Of a DNA stretch of 37,761 bases, positions 3,573-16,372 are shown piece by piece (position 1 is the first letter of the stretch; the number at the start of each line of letters is the position of its first letter). The DNA comes from a virus. The notes beneath the pieces are model-generated. The model saw nothing but the letters and a program-made list of their open reading frames with translations, was not told the origin of the DNA and ran no database searches. Where the stretch lies: positions 1 through 37,761 of the IMG/VR virus record IMGVR_UViG_3300028384_000669, one strand, 5' to 3'. The position numbers were made by a program, and so were the translations under genes.

Positions 3573-4805
3573 ATGGTTGCCTACGAAGATATGTTGAAGA
3601 AAGTTGCCGCACAGACGAAAACCGATGCAGACACCCTTTCTGCGAAAGCCGATTCTGTCCTTCTCCAAGAAGGCGCAGGTTGGGAAGCCGCAGGGAAGAA
3701 CGAGGAACAGCGCAAGACGCTGGCTCTCCGAGTCGCCGCTCGCCAACTCGTTGCCGAGAAGGCCAAGTTGTCCCGCAGTGGTGCCACCCTCTACGAAGGT
3801 ATGTTCATCAATGTGCCTCGTGAAAAGGATTGGGCCAAGATGGCTTACAACAAGACCAAGAACACCCTCGCCGGTCTTGACATGGACGGACGCCTCGCTC
3901 TCGTCTCTCAAGGTGCTGTCGTTCTCTACGAGAACAACCACGACGGCACCTTCACCCGCCACGCCAACCCCTCCCTGCTCAACCGAGATGCCTTCTCCGA
4001 GGATGTCACCTCAACCGAAGTCACCTCCGTTCCGCCCCGAAGCATGGACTTGGACGCCAACACTTCGTTCTCTTTGATTTGGGACAAAAACAACACCCAC
4101 TTTGCCAACGGCAATCCCAACTTCAAGTATGGTGCCAACCGCCCGCTTGAGGAACCCGACAGGTCGTGCCTGTTCTTGGGACGGAAGCAGGGGTCCAACG
4201 ACGCCCCCTCCGTCATTTCCATGCGCTTCAACGGTGCTTTGGCGAAGGAGTCATGGCCCACCTTCGTGACCGGCACAATCGGCATGAAGCCAGCCAACCG
4301 TGACGACATGGCTTACGGGACGAAGGCAACGGTGTTCACTGCCGACGCCAACCTCACCAACATCTTCTCCGCCCCACCTCTCGCTCTCGTTGACGGTGCG
4401 CCGCAGGGCATGGTCGCTGACTGGCTCGGTGATACGCTGTGCCAATCCCTGTCCGACTGTCATACCGCCTACGCCGCCCTTGACGACAAGGCCAAGTGGG
4501 ACACAACCTTCGGCACCGTCGTTGAAGTGGTTCACATTGACCCACGAGACAACGGCGGCTTCATCATCACCCTCGGAGACATGGACATCATGTCCGACGC
4601 CGCACCTGTGGAGTTGTATGTTTCCGCCAAAGAAGAAGGCGAGGTTGATTTCGGCGTTGGTTCCGAAGTCCTCATCGTCGGTTCGCCGTGGGTTTCCCGT
4701 GAAGGCGAGCAACGCTTCATGGTCAACGGCTGGTGGTGTATGAACGCCATCGCACCTCTCGCAGACACCGACTTCTCCGGCGACGGCGACGGTTGGGACG
4801 CTTGA
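3573..4805 (+). CDS. Putative single-stranded DNA-binding protein (OB-fold, RPA-like)
   Basis: A 410-residue protein. The first 75 residues are helical and charged. The rest is strand-rich, and a segment at about 313-392 has the pattern of an OB fold: a strand opening FGTVVEVVHID, an acidic turn, VELYVSAKEEG, then GSEVLIVGSPW and a closing strand. The C-terminus is acidic with an aromatic residue (DTDFSGDGDGWDA), like the partner-binding tails of single-stranded DNA-binding proteins. It sits between clamp loader and chaperonin behind its own promoter, as expected for a protein needed in quantity. No zinc finger typical of archaeal RPA41 is seen. Family assignment is by pattern and context; another OB-fold replication protein is the main alternative. 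Confidence 0.55.
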   Translation: MVAYEDMLKKVAAQTKTDADTLSAKADSVLLQEGAGWEAAGKNEEQRKTLALRVAARQLVAEKAKLSRSGATLYEGMFINVPREKDWAKMAYNKTKNTLAGLDMDGRLALVSQGAVVLYENNHDGTFTRHANPSLLNRDAFSEDVTSTEVTSVPPRSMDLDANTSFSLIWDKNNTHFANGNPNFKYGANRPLEEPDRSCLFLGRKQGSNDAPSVISMRFNGALAKESWPTFVTGTIGMKPANRDDMAYGTKATVFTADANLTNIFSAPPLALVDGAPQGMVADWLGDTLCQSLSDCHTAYAALDDKAKWDTTFGTVVEVVHIDPRDNGGFIITLGDMDIMSDAAPVELYVSAKEEGEVDFGVGSEVLIVGSPWVSREGEQRFMVNGWWCMNAIAPLADTDFSGDGDGWDA

Positions 4806-4812
4806 TTTGTTT

Positions 4813-4820
4813 AGGGGGAA
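4813..4820 (+). promoter_or_regulatory. Ribosome-binding site deciding the TTG start of the chaperonin
   Basis: AGGGGGAA, ending about 6-7 nt before TTG 4826. There is no in-frame ATG near the conserved chaperonin N-terminus; the ATG at 4733 lies inside the preceding gene and would add a non-homologous arginine-rich leader. Confidence 0.6.
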
Positions 4821-4825
4821 AAGAA

Positions 4826-6346
4826 TTGCACAACATCGTGAACGGAAGCGAAGCGCGCTTGGCTTTGTCCACAGCGGTTCGTCTGCTTGCAGATAGCGTG
4901 CGTGGCACCCTCGGCCCGAACGCTCGGACTGTTCTTGTTCAGCAAGAGGGGCGACCTCCGTCCGTTCTCAACGATGGCGTGAAAATTGTTTCTGCCGTAA
5001 AATCAAATGACCCTGCCGTTCAAGCATCCCTTGACCTCATCCGCCAAGTTGCCCTTGAAGCACAACAGGCTTCGGGCGACGGGACGACAACCGCTACGAT
5101 TCTTGCCGAGGCTTTGGTTGAGAATTATTCCCGTGTTGAGAGAAACCCATCGGACATGTCTCTCTTTGTGAACCATGTTGAGAACGAAATCAACGGCATG
5201 AAGTGGGAAATCAACATGGACGATGAGGAATTGCTTGACCTTCAACGGGTTGCGACTATCGCCGCCAACAATGATGAATGGATTGGTGAATTGATAACTG
5301 ATATGTTCGCCAGCATCGGTGCTGATGGACTCGTCAATCTCAAGGTCGGTTCCGACGACCACACCACTTGGTCAAAGACGACCGGTTGCGAAGTCCCGAT
5401 GTATTACGCATCCCCGATGTTCTCCAACAACGACCGGCGAACCTTTGAAGTGGACAACCCACTTTTCATTATCACAAAAGAAACCATTGAAGAGTTTGAC
5501 GATTTAACGCCTGCTCTTGAGGTTGCGATTGAGAACAACCGTCCTCTCATCATCATCTGTGAAGACATCAAAGGCGTGGCCCTATCTAATTTAATCGCAA
5601 ATGTAGTTGGTGGTGTTGTGCGTGCGTGCGCCCTGCGTATTCCTCGCAACGATGGCGACGAATGGTTTGACGACCTTTCTGCTTTGACGGGTGGCAAAAT
5701 CCACTTTGAGAGCGAGAAGGAAACGGGTATCGCTCATGCCGTCGTTGGTGCCGGACACTTTGGTTCCGCTGAGCGTATCACCGTTGGACATGCGACAACA
5801 ACCATCGTCGCTGGCGAAAGGACGGACAGATTGAAGGGACACCTTGACGGACTCATCACACAGGCCAACGAAGCCGACCATCCATTTTCAAGGGAAAAGT
5901 TGTTGACTCGTCATTCCCGTCTCGGACAGCACATGGCTACAATCCACATCGGCGGATTCAGTGAGGCTGAAATCCGTGAAACCCGTGAGCGGGTGGATGA
6001 TGCCGTCAACGCTACACGCCTTGCTCTCAAGGGTGGCGTGGTTGTCGGTGCTGGTTGGACGCTCTACACCATCGCAAAGCAGGTGTTGGATAACACGCCA
6101 TTTTCCGATGCTCTCAAGGCACCGATGAACACGCTTCAACAGAACATGTCCGGAAAGAACAACCCTTTCAAGTGGGGAGAGAATTATTACCTCAACACTA
6201 AAACGGACGAAATGGAACCAACGGAAAGCGCAACGGTTCTTGACCCCGCTCTCGTCGTCCTTAATTCGTTGAAGGCGGCTGTGTCCATCGCTCGCCTCGT
6301 CTTGACGACGGACACCATCATTCTCGCTGAACCGCAGGAGTTATAA
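4826..6346 (+). CDS. groEL: Group I (GroEL-type) chaperonin
   Basis: An ATP-driven protein-folding ring subunit of 506 residues. It reads as GroEL rather than thermosome: TLGP (28-31), the nucleotide-loop aspartate in NDG (50), GDGTTTAT (84-91), apical-domain text PLIIICEDIKGVALSNLI matching the GroEL PLLIIAEDVEGEAL region, FSREKL, and RVDDAVNATR (389-398), where D392 corresponds to the catalytic Asp398 of GroEL. The end DPALVV...LLTTD-like (RLVLTTDTII) also follows GroEL. It is about 40 residues shorter than GroEL and lacks the GGM-rich tail. No GroES is in the window. TTG 4826 is chosen for its ribosome-binding site; GTG 4838 is the alternative. Probably co-transcribed with the SSB-like gene, and likely folds capsid or replication proteins. 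Confidence 0.92.
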   Translation: MHNIVNGSEARLALSTAVRLLADSVRGTLGPNARTVLVQQEGRPPSVLNDGVKIVSAVKSNDPAVQASLDLIRQVALEAQQASGDGTTTATILAEALVENYSRVERNPSDMSLFVNHVENEINGMKWEINMDDEELLDLQRVATIAANNDEWIGELITDMFASIGADGLVNLKVGSDDHTTWSKTTGCEVPMYYASPMFSNNDRRTFEVDNPLFIITKETIEEFDDLTPALEVAIENNRPLIIICEDIKGVALSNLIANVVGGVVRACALRIPRNDGDEWFDDLSALTGGKIHFESEKETGIAHAVVGAGHFGSAERITVGHATTTIVAGERTDRLKGHLDGLITQANEADHPFSREKLLTRHSRLGQHMATIHIGGFSEAEIRETRERVDDAVNATRLALKGGVVVGAGWTLYTIAKQVLDNTPFSDALKAPMNTLQQNMSGKNNPFKWGENYYLNTKTDEMEPTESATVLDPALVVLNSLKAAVSIARLVLTTDTIILAEPQEL

Positions 6347-9475: not shown

Positions 9476-11701
9476 ATGATTGTTGAGCAAGTCGGACGCA
9501 ACGATGTGTTGGTTCGCTATCGTAATGTCAAGGGCAAGCGACAGCAAACCAAAATCACAGACAGGCTTCCTTACCTTTACCTTCGGGATGAGGATGCACA
9601 ATTCGTTGACGAGAAAAAGGAGGCGGGCTACACTGGCGTCTTTGGCGAATCCTTGACGAAGGTCACTTGCTACACGACGGACGCCGTTCGCAACCTTTCC
9701 AAGACAGGGCTAACATGGGAAGGCAACATCCCCTTCACGAATCAAGTCTTGACGGCTCGTGTGAAGGAGGGACGGAAGCCCTTTGCTTCCTACAATCATC
9801 GGGTTTGGTATCTTGACGGTGAATGGAAAACGGATAGCGGGCAAATCACCATGCTTACCGTGTTTGATAGTTTTACCGAAAATCTTTACTCTTGGGCGGT
9901 TCTGCCTCATGGTGTCTCTAAGGGTAAGTATTCTGCGTTGCTTGACGCGAACGACAACCGATACGAATACGACACGCCCGTTCTCGTCTTTGACACCGAG
10001 GCTGAATTGCTCACCCACTTCACAGCGTTCATGCGGAAGCAAGACCCCGACATCATCACGGGCTGGTATGTCGCTGGTGCTGACTTGAAGCAAATCATTG
10101 AGCGGTGCAACAAGGTGGGTGTTCGTGCATCTACCATGTCCCCCCTCAACCGCATTCGCTACGACTTCGGAGATTGGTCGCAACCCATCGTCGGACGGAA
10201 TGTCATTGACTTGCGCCTCGCCTTCACCAAACTTTGGGAATTGAAGAACGGCAAGTTGCCGAATTACAAGTTGGATGATGTCGCATGGGAATGTTTAGGG
10301 GAAAAGAAAACCGAGTTGCCCGATGGACACGACACCTACTATTCCGACCCGATTCTTTACCTTGAATACAACCGACAGGATGTGCGCCTGCTTCCCCGAC
10401 TGAACGGACTCGTCAATGCGTTGGACTATTTCATCGCCGTGCAACACATCGCTCAATGCGAAATCCGAAGCACCCCGTTTGTGACGCAGGTCTTTACCTG
10501 TCTTGCTTTGGGCGACCCGGAATTCAAGAAACAAATCCCGTCCAAGCCGATGTTTGACAAAGAGAATTACGACGGCGCAATCGTCATGGATGGCAAAAAG
10601 GGAATCTACCAAAACATCGGTATTTTTGATGTAAAAGCCATGTATCACAGCAACGCCGCTCTCCACAACATCTCGTGGGACACGCTCGGCCCAAAGGGTG
10701 CCGACTGCGGAAACGGGACGAAGTTTTCACAGGAGAAGAAGGGTTTGTTGGTGCGGCAGATGGACAACATGACCGTGCTACGCGACCACTACAAGCAACT
10801 GATGAAGGACGCTACAACGGACGAAGAACGGGTGCGCTACGACGCCCTACAATACGCCACGAAGTCCCTTGTTGCATCCATGTATGGCGTTGCTGGTGAT
10901 GCCAAGTATGGTCTGTATCACCCCGACATCGCCGCCGCAATCACTTTTACCTCAAGACAAACCTTGCTCAAGTTGAAAGAGGTTGCCGAGGACTTGGGCC
11001 ATCCCGTGGTCTACGGACACACTGACTCGGTGATGTGCAGGGTTCGGACTCCCGACGAAGGCGAGTTGTCGCTCTATGAAATAAACCGCCGTATGCACCC
11101 CATCATCGTGCAGTTTGAGAAGTGGTCGTCGTCGTTCATTCTCATGGAGAAGAATCGCTACGCTGGTCTTGTTTGTTGGACGGACGGGGAACACCACAAC
11201 CCCAAGCGGTATGTGAAAGGTATTGAGTTAAAACAAAACAGGATGCCAACCGTGATGAAGGAGTCAATGGGTAAAGTAATTGACGGCATTCTCGGCGGTT
11301 ATCACGAAGACCAAATCACCGACCCGCTGGTGAAGTCAATTGAAAGCATTATTAGCGGAAAGGTAAATGTTCTTGATTTGTGCATGAAGGGCAAATTGAA
11401 GAAGAATCTCAGCGAATACCGTAGCGTGAGCGGCATGGCCGCAGGCGCACAATGGGCGAACAGAACGCTCGGCAAGGGTTATCGTGCTGGTGATGATTTT
11501 CTCGTAACGATTGACCCGAAGGGCCAATACCTCGCTTTTGACGACCCGAAGGACATTGAGGGAATCGCTGAAATCGGCTATCGCACGATGGTTGAGCGAT
11601 TCATCATAAACCGTGTTCAACCGTATTATGATGTAGCGGGGTGGGACATTTCCCCGTTGTATCGCGCTGTTGAAGGCAAATCAAAGGTGGCTTGGTTATG
11701 A
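9476..11701 (+). CDS. polB: Family B DNA polymerase with 3'-5' exonuclease
   Basis: The replicative polymerase, 741 residues. Exonuclease motifs: Exo I as D114-x-E116, Exo II around TGW with D203, Exo III as Y298...D302. The Y-x-G-A element is EYDGAIV (364-370). Polymerase motif A is DVKAMYHS (385-392), motif B is KSLVASMYG (463-471), motif C is YGHTDS (513-518), and KRYVKGIELK follows as the K-x-Y region. Two residues are unusual: alanine for the usual asparagine in motif B and histidine for the first aspartate of DTDS; the metal-binding second aspartate is kept. There is no TPR insertion typical of protein-primed enzymes, so it should extend primers from the encoded primase with the clamp. 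The stop overlaps the methyltransferase ATG. Confidence 0.96.
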   Translation: MIVEQVGRNDVLVRYRNVKGKRQQTKITDRLPYLYLRDEDAQFVDEKKEAGYTGVFGESLTKVTCYTTDAVRNLSKTGLTWEGNIPFTNQVLTARVKEGRKPFASYNHRVWYLDGEWKTDSGQITMLTVFDSFTENLYSWAVLPHGVSKGKYSALLDANDNRYEYDTPVLVFDTEAELLTHFTAFMRKQDPDIITGWYVAGADLKQIIERCNKVGVRASTMSPLNRIRYDFGDWSQPIVGRNVIDLRLAFTKLWELKNGKLPNYKLDDVAWECLGEKKTELPDGHDTYYSDPILYLEYNRQDVRLLPRLNGLVNALDYFIAVQHIAQCEIRSTPFVTQVFTCLALGDPEFKKQIPSKPMFDKENYDGAIVMDGKKGIYQNIGIFDVKAMYHSNAALHNISWDTLGPKGADCGNGTKFSQEKKGLLVRQMDNMTVLRDHYKQLMKDATTDEERVRYDALQYATKSLVASMYGVAGDAKYGLYHPDIAAAITFTSRQTLLKLKEVAEDLGHPVVYGHTDSVMCRVRTPDEGELSLYEINRRMHPIIVQFEKWSSSFILMEKNRYAGLVCWTDGEHHNPKRYVKGIELKQNRMPTVMKESMGKVIDGILGGYHEDQITDPLVKSIESIISGKVNVLDLCMKGKLKKNLSEYRSVSGMAAGAQWANRTLGKGYRAGDDFLVTIDPKGQYLAFDDPKDIEGIAEIGYRTMVERFIINRVQPYYDVAGWDISPLYRAVEGKSKVAWL

Positions 11702-13595: not shown

Positions 13596-14498
13596 ATGGG
13601 AGAGGCGAAGCGCACATCTACATACGACCCGACGAAGGTCACGGACGAAATGGTGCTACGCGTTAGCAAGTCGTCCTACAACAACTATGCTATGTGCCCC
13701 CGCCAGTATTGGTGGAACAAAATCGCTTTGCCCGACATGGACATACCGTCCAGCGAAGCCGCCATCCGTGGAACGGCGATTCACCAAGTCATGGAGGATG
13801 GTCTGCGTGAGTTGTCCGTTGACAAGACCTGCAACATCATGCCCGATGTGATGATGGACACCGCCTTCAACAAACACGCCATCGCTCAAGGTGTGCAGAC
13901 CGAGACTGGTGTGGACGCTATGCGTGAAATCCTTGAAGCGATTGCCGAAGAATGGGGACACATTGAGATTGTTGAATTGGAGGATAAGCATGTTCACCCA
14001 TACACCATCAGCGTCTTGACCGACGACGGCGAAATACACTATCCTGTTGAATTGGTTGGGATGATTGACGGTGTGTTCCGACACCCCGATGGACACCTTG
14101 TTGTCGTTGAATTGAAGACCGGCAACGCCAACTCATCCAAGTTGTCAAGAACTCGTGGCGAGTTGTGCTTTTACCGCAAACTTCTCATGCTCAAGGGCTA
14201 CGACGAACCGACTCACTTCTTGACGATTTTCCCCGACGCCGACAACCCCGACTTCCTCATGTCGTTGATGGGTAAGCGCAACACCGAAGTCTACATGGGA
14301 GACTCACAGGGCTTGGCCGTGTATGAGGTCGTCGGCACCCGAAGCATCAATGCGATGGAGAAAAAGTTAAGCAACGCCGTTCACGGTATTATGACTCAAG
14401 AATGGCCTATCAAGTGGAACGATTATTTCTGCACGCAATGGTGTGAGTTTCATTTGTCGTGCAACGAAGAATTACTTGGAATCGGTGATGCAATATGA
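13596..14498 (+). CDS. Cas4/RecB-family nuclease with Fe-S-type cysteines
   Basis: A 300-residue PD-(D/E)xK nuclease of the Cas4/RecB group. Visible elements in order: C34 in CPRQYW, H63 in RGTAIHQ, D158 in GMIDG, E172-L-K174 in VVELKTG, and the E-L-C-F-Y element (189-193) in the place of the usual QxxxY. The end has C279, C283 and C289 which, with C34, would hold a 4Fe-4S cluster as in Cas4 and AddB. It would degrade or trim DNA ends during recombination or DNA processing. No Cas1, Cas2 or CRISPR array is nearby, so this is a stand-alone viral nuclease. The mRNA is probably leaderless from the palindromic promoter. The stop overlaps the next zinc-ribbon ATG by 4 nt. Confidence 0.88.
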   Translation: MGEAKRTSTYDPTKVTDEMVLRVSKSSYNNYAMCPRQYWWNKIALPDMDIPSSEAAIRGTAIHQVMEDGLRELSVDKTCNIMPDVMMDTAFNKHAIAQGVQTETGVDAMREILEAIAEEWGHIEIVELEDKHVHPYTISVLTDDGEIHYPVELVGMIDGVFRHPDGHLVVVELKTGNANSSKLSRTRGELCFYRKLLMLKGYDEPTHFLTIFPDADNPDFLMSLMGKRNTEVYMGDSQGLAVYEVVGTRSINAMEKKLSNAVHGIMTQEWPIKWNDYFCTQWCEFHLSCNEELLGIGDAI

Positions 14499-14635
14499 AT
14501 GGATGTCCGAAGTGCGATAGTGGGAATGTTCAAGTTGAAGTGATGTGGCGAGTGACCGGCAAGGAAGGCGATGCACCCGCACAATTAGATGTAGCAGAGT
14601 GCAAGGATTGTGGACACCGATGGCCGCTGGACTAA
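14495..14635 (+). CDS. Zinc-ribbon microprotein (46 aa) before the primase
   Basis: A 46-residue frame starting in the stop of the nuclease gene. It carries C-P-K-C at residues 4-7 and C-K-D-C-G-H at 36-41 with a strand-rich middle (NVQVEVMWRV), closely resembling the TFIIS/RPB9-type zinc ribbon spacing. It overlaps the primase start by 16 nt. A role in primase or RNA polymerase contact would fit the position, without direct evidence. Confidence 0.65.
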   Translation: MNGCPKCDSGNVQVEVMWRVTGKEGDAPAQLDVAECKDCGHRWPLD

Positions 14636-15627
14636 TTTCATTCCCCCGTGAGATGGGACTCAAGCGTTCCCTGTGCAAAAGCCGAGAGCAACTCCGAACA
14701 TACATCGGGAGACTTAACGGTAAAAGTAATCTCTACACTTCGCTCTATGCTTTCCGTGATGTTGAGCGCACAAAGTCTTGGAAGGTTGATACAACAACAG
14801 CCATCATAGACCGCGCGTGGTGGGACTTTGACGCAGGTGAGCGAGGCGATATTGAGCAGGTCAAGAGCGATGTTCGTGAATTGCTCACCCGTTTGGGCGG
14901 AGATTGCCGAGTCGTTGCCACGGGTCGCGGATTTCATGTTCACCAACTGTTTAGCCGACCTGTGGTGGGACGAGATTTTGATACGCATTTACAGCGATAC
15001 CAACGAATGATGAGCGACGGTCTTCCTACGCTGGACGGTTTCGCTTTTCCCGCAAAATTAACTCGCATCCCGAACACTTACAACTGCACCCGCAAGCGAT
15101 GGGCTGTCGTTATTCCTCCGAAGGCCATCCTTGACGATGGCTTCAAAATCCCAAAGCGACCCGTCAAGGAATGGCGCGAGTATTGCCCGTTCTTCGGTAA
15201 GCCCAATGAGAGCGACTTTGACTTCGTTATGTGGGTGAACAATAATCCGCCGCCGAAGGTGGAGATGCAACCGTTCACGGGAGAAGTCGGTTTGGCAGGT
15301 GAAGTCCCCATCATGCCATGTCTTGAGAAGGCCATCAACGCCAACAGCCCTACGCACGAAGTCCGTGTCGCTCTCGTCCAGCACATGAGTCAAGAATTGC
15401 GGTGGTTCGCTGACCCGTCTTCTCTCTCCCAAGAACAGCGTCGGGAGATTGAGGACACCATCTTTTCTTATCTTAAAAGTCTCAAGTGGGACAATTGGAA
15501 CGAACACAAAAGCCGACAAGGAATCCGAACCAATATCGGCTACGCCAACGCCCCGTCCTGCCGCTGGTATAACCTGCGTGGGATGTGTGCAGGCAAATGT
15601 TGGCGTTATGATGGAACCATAGATTGA
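14620..15627 (+). CDS. Archaeo-eukaryotic primase fused to a PriL-type Fe-S domain
   Basis: A 335-residue single-chain primase. The N-terminal part is an AEP catalytic core: D69-F-D71 in WWDFDAG, the GRGFHVH motif with H106, and the RIPNTYN element (149-155) matching the R-L-P region of PriS. The C-terminal part matches the PriL domain: C234 (MPCLEKA), a helical ALVQHM stretch, then APSC (C314), GMC (C323) and GKC (C327). These four cysteines are arranged like the 4Fe-4S ligands of large primase subunits. It should make primers for PolB without a separate large subunit. ATG 14620 is chosen because the longer reading (14545) runs through the zinc-ribbon gene; ATG 14653 is possible. Confidence 0.85.
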   Translation: MAAGLISFPREMGLKRSLCKSREQLRTYIGRLNGKSNLYTSLYAFRDVERTKSWKVDTTTAIIDRAWWDFDAGERGDIEQVKSDVRELLTRLGGDCRVVATGRGFHVHQLFSRPVVGRDFDTHLQRYQRMMSDGLPTLDGFAFPAKLTRIPNTYNCTRKRWAVVIPPKAILDDGFKIPKRPVKEWREYCPFFGKPNESDFDFVMWVNNNPPPKVEMQPFTGEVGLAGEVPIMPCLEKAINANSPTHEVRVALVQHMSQELRWFADPSSLSQEQRREIEDTIFSYLKSLKWDNWNEHKSRQGIRTNIGYANAPSCRWYNLRGMCAGKCWRYDGTID

Positions 15628-15652: not shown

Positions 15653-16372
15653 ATGCTTCTCATAGACCACCGTGAAAATCCCAAATTGATTCACAAGTTG
15701 CTGGTCAAGTTGGGTGATGCAGACAAGGATGAGCGGGGACAAGCACGCACCCTTCAAATGAACACCGGAGATTATGTGCTTGGCGATTGGGGGATTGAGG
15801 CAAAAGAAATCAACGACCTTTACCGTAGCATTCTCGGCATCGGGCGTTCCCGAACAATCGTTGGACAACTCACCGACTTGTGCGAATCGTTTGAGAAGCC
15901 ATTCCTCGTGGTCTACAACACCGAGTTGAAACCGTGGTTCCACGGCAGGAAGCCAAGCGCACGGGAGTTGTCGGAAGAACGACGCAAAATGGCGGCGGTT
16001 ATTCATTCGTTCAAGTTGACGATGCACCAGCGATTCCCCAAGTTGCACTTCCTACAACTCACGACGATGGACGACTTCGTAGAATGGCTCTACATGAACC
16101 ACCGACAGAATGTTATCGCAAAAGTAAAACCACCGAAGGCCCACAAACCGGAACAGGTTATCCTTGAGGAAACCGATGATAGGGTCAAGGCGTTGATGGG
16201 ATGCGGCATTTCACGAGAACAGGCCGTCGCCTTGCTGGAACACTACGGGTCAATCAGCGTGCTGTTGCAGAAGAAGACCCGACAAAAAGAAATGGTAAAG
16301 GTAAGTGGTATCAGCCACAAACAGGCCAAGCGTGTGCTTTCGCTACGCAAGGATTTCATCAATAAGGCTTGA
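15653..16372 (+). CDS. XPF/ERCC4-type structure-specific nuclease
   Basis: A 239-residue nuclease. The ERCC4 fold is shown by LLIDHREN (2-9, with D5 and E8), GDY (39-41) and the catalytic E49-x-K51 within GIEAKEINDL; the canonical text is ERK, here changed to EAK. The C-terminal 60 residues hold tandem helix-hairpin-helix units (MGCGISREQAVALLEHYG and KVSGISHKQAKRVLSL) that bind DNA. Enzymes of this group cut branched DNA, flaps or stalled forks, so it probably resolves recombination or replication intermediates before packaging. It closes the plus-strand arm, and its last 14 bp overlap the end of the convergent virion gene. Confidence 0.92.
   Translation: MLLIDHRENPKLIHKLLVKLGDADKDERGQARTLQMNTGDYVLGDWGIEAKEINDLYRSILGIGRSRTIVGQLTDLCESFEKPFLVVYNTELKPWFHGRKPSARELSEERRKMAAVIHSFKLTMHQRFPKLHFLQLTTMDDFVEWLYMNHRQNVIAKVKPPKAHKPEQVILEETDDRVKALMGCGISREQAVALLEHYGSISVLLQKKTRQKEMVKVSGISHKQAKRVLSLRKDFINKA

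Follow-up and report, generated by a model that had tools for sequence, protein, structure and literature searches.

A 335-residue protein encoded on a 37,761-nucleotide stretch of viral DNA (IMG/VR record IMGVR_UViG_3300028384_000669; the whole stretch is called the window below) raises the question of whether one small chain can unite the catalytic core of the small primase subunit, PriS, with the metal-binding domain of the large subunit, PriL, and which metal such a domain would hold. Fused PriS-PriL enzymes (those of DPANN archaea and PolpTN2) and the archaeo-eukaryotic primases (AEP) of magroviruses are already known; what is new here is a viral, compact single chain without the PriL N-terminal domain and with relocating cluster ligands. 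It is disputed whether the iron-sulfur cluster serves primases as a redox switch or only as a structural staple; Holzer et al. described priming by the Sulfolobus enzyme without the iron-sulfur cluster (PMC5700102).

Results

The gene and its viral family

The gene occupies positions 14620..15627 of the plus strand, and its translation and relatives bear out the ATG at 14620, the stop at 15627 and the length of 335 amino acids. An in-frame GTG further upstream at 14545 is not kept among relatives, and the opposite strand is interrupted by stops or holds unsupported frames only. In the translation, D69-F-D71, GRGFHVH (residues 102-108) and the cysteines C234, C314, C323 and C327 stand where a first-pass annotation, made from the DNA alone, had placed them.

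Single-sequence searches of Pfam, PHROGs and the PDB gave no significant match to the protein, sequence searches of the same databases with family profiles gave nothing useful either, and none of 32 family members matched PF01896. A PF01896 match at 2434-2535 of the window (12.8 bits) shares its frame with the RFC-like open reading frame, is located upstream of it and was taken as chance. In IMG/VR the single protein recovered 39 relatives and alignments about 170-220, the best 80 being retrieved per alignment scan. More than 200 viral contigs have a relative; a distant clade (L426-L445) adds 20 further loci, on contigs of up to 97 kb. A viral protein library contains a 332-residue protein that matches over the full length with 46% identity, and a 327-residue ‘primase large subunit’ of an uncultured archaeal virus aligns with the protein too. 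No relative was confirmed in a collection of bacterial and archaeal genomes, and tblastn of GenBank phages with the single protein found none. A search for a cellular or prophage origin in 390 genomes from the phylum of a Thermoplasmatota genome yielded two weak matches only, both to the core.

An AEP core and a PriL-like C-terminal domain

To the N-terminal half (residues 1-209, 14620..15246) we assign a PriS-like AEP core on the basis of fold comparison, profile alignment and conservation. Its motifs are PRExGLKR (residues 9-16), the metal-binding aspartates of AEP motif I in D69-F70-D71 (14824..14832), motif II in G102-RGFHV-H108 (14923..14943), an LD at 138-139 and R149-x-P-x-T-x-N; D139, in LDG (15034..15036), is a candidate for motif III, placed by analogy with PriS. 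Conservation among the 158 non-identical family members is nearly complete, D69 and H106 being present in all and D71 and D139 in 157 each. Similarity to PriS is remote and appears at the level of profile-profile comparison, for which cellular PriS, PriL and fused PriSL sequences were gathered from archaeal genomes: hhalign gave the N-terminal half a probability of 92% for archaeal PriS against 0.2% for PriL, with a PriS score of 54.5 where 100 column shuffles reached at most 25. An AlphaFold model built with 32 relatives had a full-length pLDDT of 85, and Foldseek matched the core to the LigD polymerase (E 9e-5), CAPP (3e-4) and Pfu PriS (6e-3), all with probability 1.00, as well as to the cyanophage S-2L PrimPol, also with probability 1.00. 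In the model, then, the N-terminal half has the RRM-like AEP fold, confirmed by Foldseek.

The inner stretch of lowest confidence in the full-length model, with a pLDDT of about 60 around residues 211-220, is a linker (15247..15288), beyond which profiles, the PriL alignment and the model delimit a helical metal domain resembling the PriL C-terminal domain (PriL-CTD; residues 224-335, 15289..15624). Here the hhalign preference is the reverse, with 95% for archaeal PriL and 0.1% for PriS, and a PriL score of 58, the best of 100 column shuffles reaching 19. Conversely, when 15,176 viral open reading frames were searched with an HMM of cellular PriL, all 43 matches at E<=0.01 were members of the primase family, and no other PriL-like frame was found among them. 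In the alignment C234 (15319..15321, in a PMPC or PPPC context and invariant in the 158), C314 (15559..15561) and C323 fall on PriL cysteines; C234 and C314 would be the first and second metal ligands, C323 and C327 (15586..15600) the third and fourth. The large-subunit cysteine spacing that had been claimed for the protein also holds: its 80/9/4 stands beside 63-72/9/4-10 in most archaeal PriL examined, one Sulfolobales PriL reading 63/9/4. Since C1 and C2 lie 81 residues apart in yeast PriL (PMC2852410), the viral spacing joins a yeast-like C1-C2 distance to the short archaeal tail (9/4-10). The alignment further places H246-x-x-R249 (15355..15366) on the HxxR of the PriL initiation site, a motif kept in nearly all family members and in 8 of 12 cellular PriL. 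Arginine 306 of human and arginine 355 of yeast PriL are required for initiation (PMC5700102), and judging from the HxxR motif R249 would be their counterpart.

The PriL alignment covers residues 230-325 only, and the PriL N-terminal domain is absent. The protein had been called a very compact version at 335 residues; its size stands, with the refinement that the compactness comes largely from this absence. The central claim of the first-pass annotation, a PriS-like core and a PriL-type cysteine domain in one chain, is upheld by profiles, cysteine spacing and HxxR, and for the core by the fold search.

A probable metal ligand that changes place

Among the 158 non-identical sequences, C314 is lost in some relatives, and the loss goes together with a change at the position three residues after the fourth cysteine (C4+3; Y330 in the window protein, 15607..15609). 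The 98 sequences with C-x8-C-x3-5-C have Y, D, N, F or K at C4+3 and never Cys or His (0/98). In the 56 C314-less, C-terminally complete relatives the position is Cys in 32 and His in 23 (55/56), the sole exception being L084, which reads CWCA and whose close sisters read CWAH. A subgroup in which the helix between C2 and C3 is deleted retains one or two cysteines there, and so still has at least four candidate ligands. HVTV-1 gp100, which has four cysteines with a longer last spacing, was set aside from this comparison. On a quick tree of 90 sequences, built with the C-terminal tail left out and with SH-aLRT as its only support measure, we counted nine state changes, at least six of them on well supported branches, and C4+3 changed in the compensating direction in all of six independent pairs (sign test, p = 0.03). 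That the replacement recurs, and compensates each time, is hard to account for unless both positions can reach the same metal. It indicates that the C-terminal cysteines and histidine form a four-ligand metal site, and as a pattern of residues the switch is neutral between Fe-S and Zn.

On balance we favour the reading that these viral primases hold a PriL-type [4Fe-4S] cluster with interchangeable ligands, one of which has hopped between C2 and a Cys or His after C4 at least six times independently. In profile and cysteine spacing the domain matches that of PriL, which in yeast binds [4Fe-4S] (PMC2852410), and the same four cysteines occur in PolpTN2, a brown protein (PMC3973330). Seven of the C314-less members read CX3CX(F/Y/W)C. 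This pattern is a well-known [4Fe-4S] nest, possible for zinc too, and zinc sites exchange Cys for His more commonly than [4Fe-4S] sites do. With the switching ligand a histidine in 23 sequences, and with neither AlphaFold nor sequence able to tell the metals apart, the same single-chain primase might instead use its C-terminal cysteines to bind a structural zinc, comparable to the CHCC finger of PrimPol; in view of the PriL match, the brown colour of PolpTN2 and the nest-like motif we regard zinc as rather unlikely. We found no biochemical work on any family member. Nor did we find an earlier report of ligand relocation in the literature searched, which does not prove that there is none.

The fold of the C-terminal domain

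Structure prediction had been proposed as a check on both halves, and it answered for one of them: the core led to AEP folds, while the C-terminal domain modelled alone, in spite of a pLDDT of 90, had no significant Foldseek match in the PDB, Sulfolobus PriX being among its weak matches (E 3.3). Homology to PriL-CTD therefore rests on the sequence profiles. These weak fold matches, PriX among them, would also suit an AEP core joined to a PriCT-type helical domain that gained its cysteines independently, its likeness to PriL-CTD being convergent. In mobile elements AEPs are usually paired with PriCT domains, whose structure is related to that of PriL Fe-S_N (PMC5862659). That cysteines, their spacing and HxxR all align with PriL columns, in a comparison made against PriL, makes convergence improbable.

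The gene stands in a replication block

The neighbourhood of the gene was counted in 294 loci, which include duplicate contigs. The upstream neighbour, a PD-(D/E)XK nuclease of RecB/Cas4-like type (13596..14498, plus strand), is kept close by and on the strand of the primase in 282 of them, and the downstream one, an ERCC4/XPF-like nuclease with HhH (15653..16372, plus strand), in 277. A family B DNA polymerase, PolB, in the same block and on the same strand (9476..11701) recurs in 244 loci, a PCNA-like protein in 181 and an AAA ATPase in 126. The window itself has an RFC-like AAA ATPase and a chaperonin, and carries its structural genes on the other strand. A 46-residue zinc-ribbon protein (14495..14635, plus strand) overlaps the primase start, and in 206 of the 294 loci a homologue of it stops where the primase begins, which suggests a small partner of the primase or translational coupling. 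The 46-residue frame is TFIIS-like (CPKC...CKDC) and its overlap with the primase amounts to 16 bases.

Two other genes of the block were recorded. The TCP-1/cpn60 chaperonin gene (4733-6346, plus strand; Pfam E 2e-38) lies inside the replication block, and 30 related loci have a homologue of it no more than about 6 kb from the primase. At 3573-4805 (plus strand) the window encodes a 410-residue protein without a significant Pfam match, whose N-terminus resembles that of HVTV-1 gp104 by eye; its position suggests a role in ssDNA binding.

A search for an MCM helicase gave no match in 13 related viral records of 60-97 kb, despite their AEP primase and, usually, PolB, and 13 long related viral contigs gave no PriL-family match. 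One copy of the family per record was found in 15 of 16 records. The exception, a 73.8-kb record (IMGVR_UViG_3300030117_003378, L122/L049) in which the two primase genes are divergent, starts with part of a second PolB, and we rejected it as a virus with two primases; the 6.8-kb L045, rejected likewise, joins genes of two distant clades. Since both two-primase records look like joined or chimeric assemblies, we claim no paralogy. The block resembles the replication blocks of Magrovirales and Druskaviridae (PMC10768690, PMC12999244), which makes a marine archaeon the probable host of this uncultured tailed virus.

That the protein is a repair-type Prim-Pol like LigD or CAPP, viral replication being primed by a host enzyme, has little probability: LigD polymerase and CAPP are its best solved-structure matches and its flanking genes are nucleases, but those are low-identity fold matches, the gene belongs to a replication block that also encodes PolB, an RFC-like AAA ATPase and a PCNA-like protein, and it is the sole family member in 15 of 16 records, with no PriL-family gene found beside it. 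We conclude that the protein is very probably the replicative single-chain primase of a tailed archaeal virus, composed of a PriS-like core and a PriL-CTD-like metal domain.

Comparison with known primases

The PriS-PriL heterodimers of archaea and eukaryotes, in some cases with PriX, share with the viral primase the AEP core, HxxR and the four PriL-CTD cysteines; they differ in consisting of two or three separate chains and in possessing the PriL-NTD, and the viral protein is too distant from them for PF01896 or PF04104 matches.

Fused PriS-PriL primases are known from Undinarchaeota and DPANN Cluster 2 (PMC7414124), and the first-pass annotation had compared the protein with fused forms from reduced archaea. 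The comparison holds in so far as the DPANN fusions (Nanoarchaeum and relatives) also place a PriS-like core before a PriL-CTD in one chain, three of them (L282, L283 and L284) with cysteines in the order FPPC...C...GVC...C in the PriL-CTD; it has to be amended in that the protein here is viral and belongs to the replication block of a tailed archaeal virus. The fusions, moreover, are cellular, have frames of 419-454 residues in three examples and showed no HxxR, hhalign of the viral family against four of them gave a probability of 3%, and no ligand relocation was seen in those examined. In another fused PriS-PriL, from a nanohaloarchaeon (L285:811-2286, minus strand), the cluster cysteines appear lost, with PPT for PPC and NYN for the second; this is perhaps a natural cluster-less primase.

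PolpTN2, from the Thermococcus plasmid pTN2, resembles the viral primase as a mobile-element protein with an AEP and a PriL-like four-cysteine domain, and it primes PolB in vitro; unlike the viral primase it has 923 residues and includes a PriL NTD, a PriCT-1 and a winged helix (PMC3973330, PMC5862659). Its motif II carries Gln in place of the His that is invariant as H106 in the viral family, a difference that sets the family apart from PolpTN2 / PrimPol-PV1.

Among viruses, the family profile, not tblastn with the single protein, recovered gp100 of the halovirus HVTV-1, which is homologous over the core and the C-terminal domain (A2 profile, E 3e-7) but has 382 residues and a wider gap between the last two cysteines, and is very divergent. 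Homologues of gp100 occur in HVTV-2, HCTV-1, HCTV-5 and HCTV-16 (Druskaviridae), with a ‘DNA primase’ annotation in HVTV-2 and HCTV-16. Magrovirales (Aoguangviridae, Apasviridae), tailed viruses that infect marine archaea, are described as having an AEP primase, PolB, clamp, clamp loader and chaperonin; their genomes are 90-110 kb, one with an MCM (PMC10768690, PMC12999244), whereas the longer contigs of the window's clade are mostly 60-75 kb.

Discussion

By analogy with PriSL (PMC5700102), from which we infer priming activity, cluster type and the order of steps, the single chain could work as follows. The PriS-like core would bind two metal ions through D69, D71 and D139 and hold the incoming nucleotide at the elongation site, and the PriL-CTD-like domain, on its short linker, would hold the initiating nucleoside triphosphate with H246xxR249 at the initiation site. 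A metal cluster on C234, C314, C323 and C327, most likely [4Fe-4S], would pin the C-terminal tail onto the bundle of helices; the second ligand has shifted to C4+3, as Cys or His, in sister lineages. Together the two sites would make the first dinucleotide and then a short primer, the linker allowing the CTD to move in when the first phosphodiester bond is made and to remain on the 5' triphosphate as extension proceeds, and the neighbouring viral PolB would extend the primer. The chain has done away with the PriL N-terminal domain, the part that otherwise holds CTD and PriS together.

The analysis gives a name to a gene that Pfam and PHROGs miss and that is present in more than 200 viral contigs, and a very small self-contained PriS-PriL-CTD primase should be useful for structures of initiation complexes. 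The natural ligand variants of so compact a primase allow the role of the cluster to be tested, also by a two-residue exchange. If the [4Fe-4S] reading is true, there are natural primases with four-cysteine, relocated four-cysteine and three-cysteine/one-histidine clusters, and one would expect their redox potentials to differ, with the enzyme retained by the virus.
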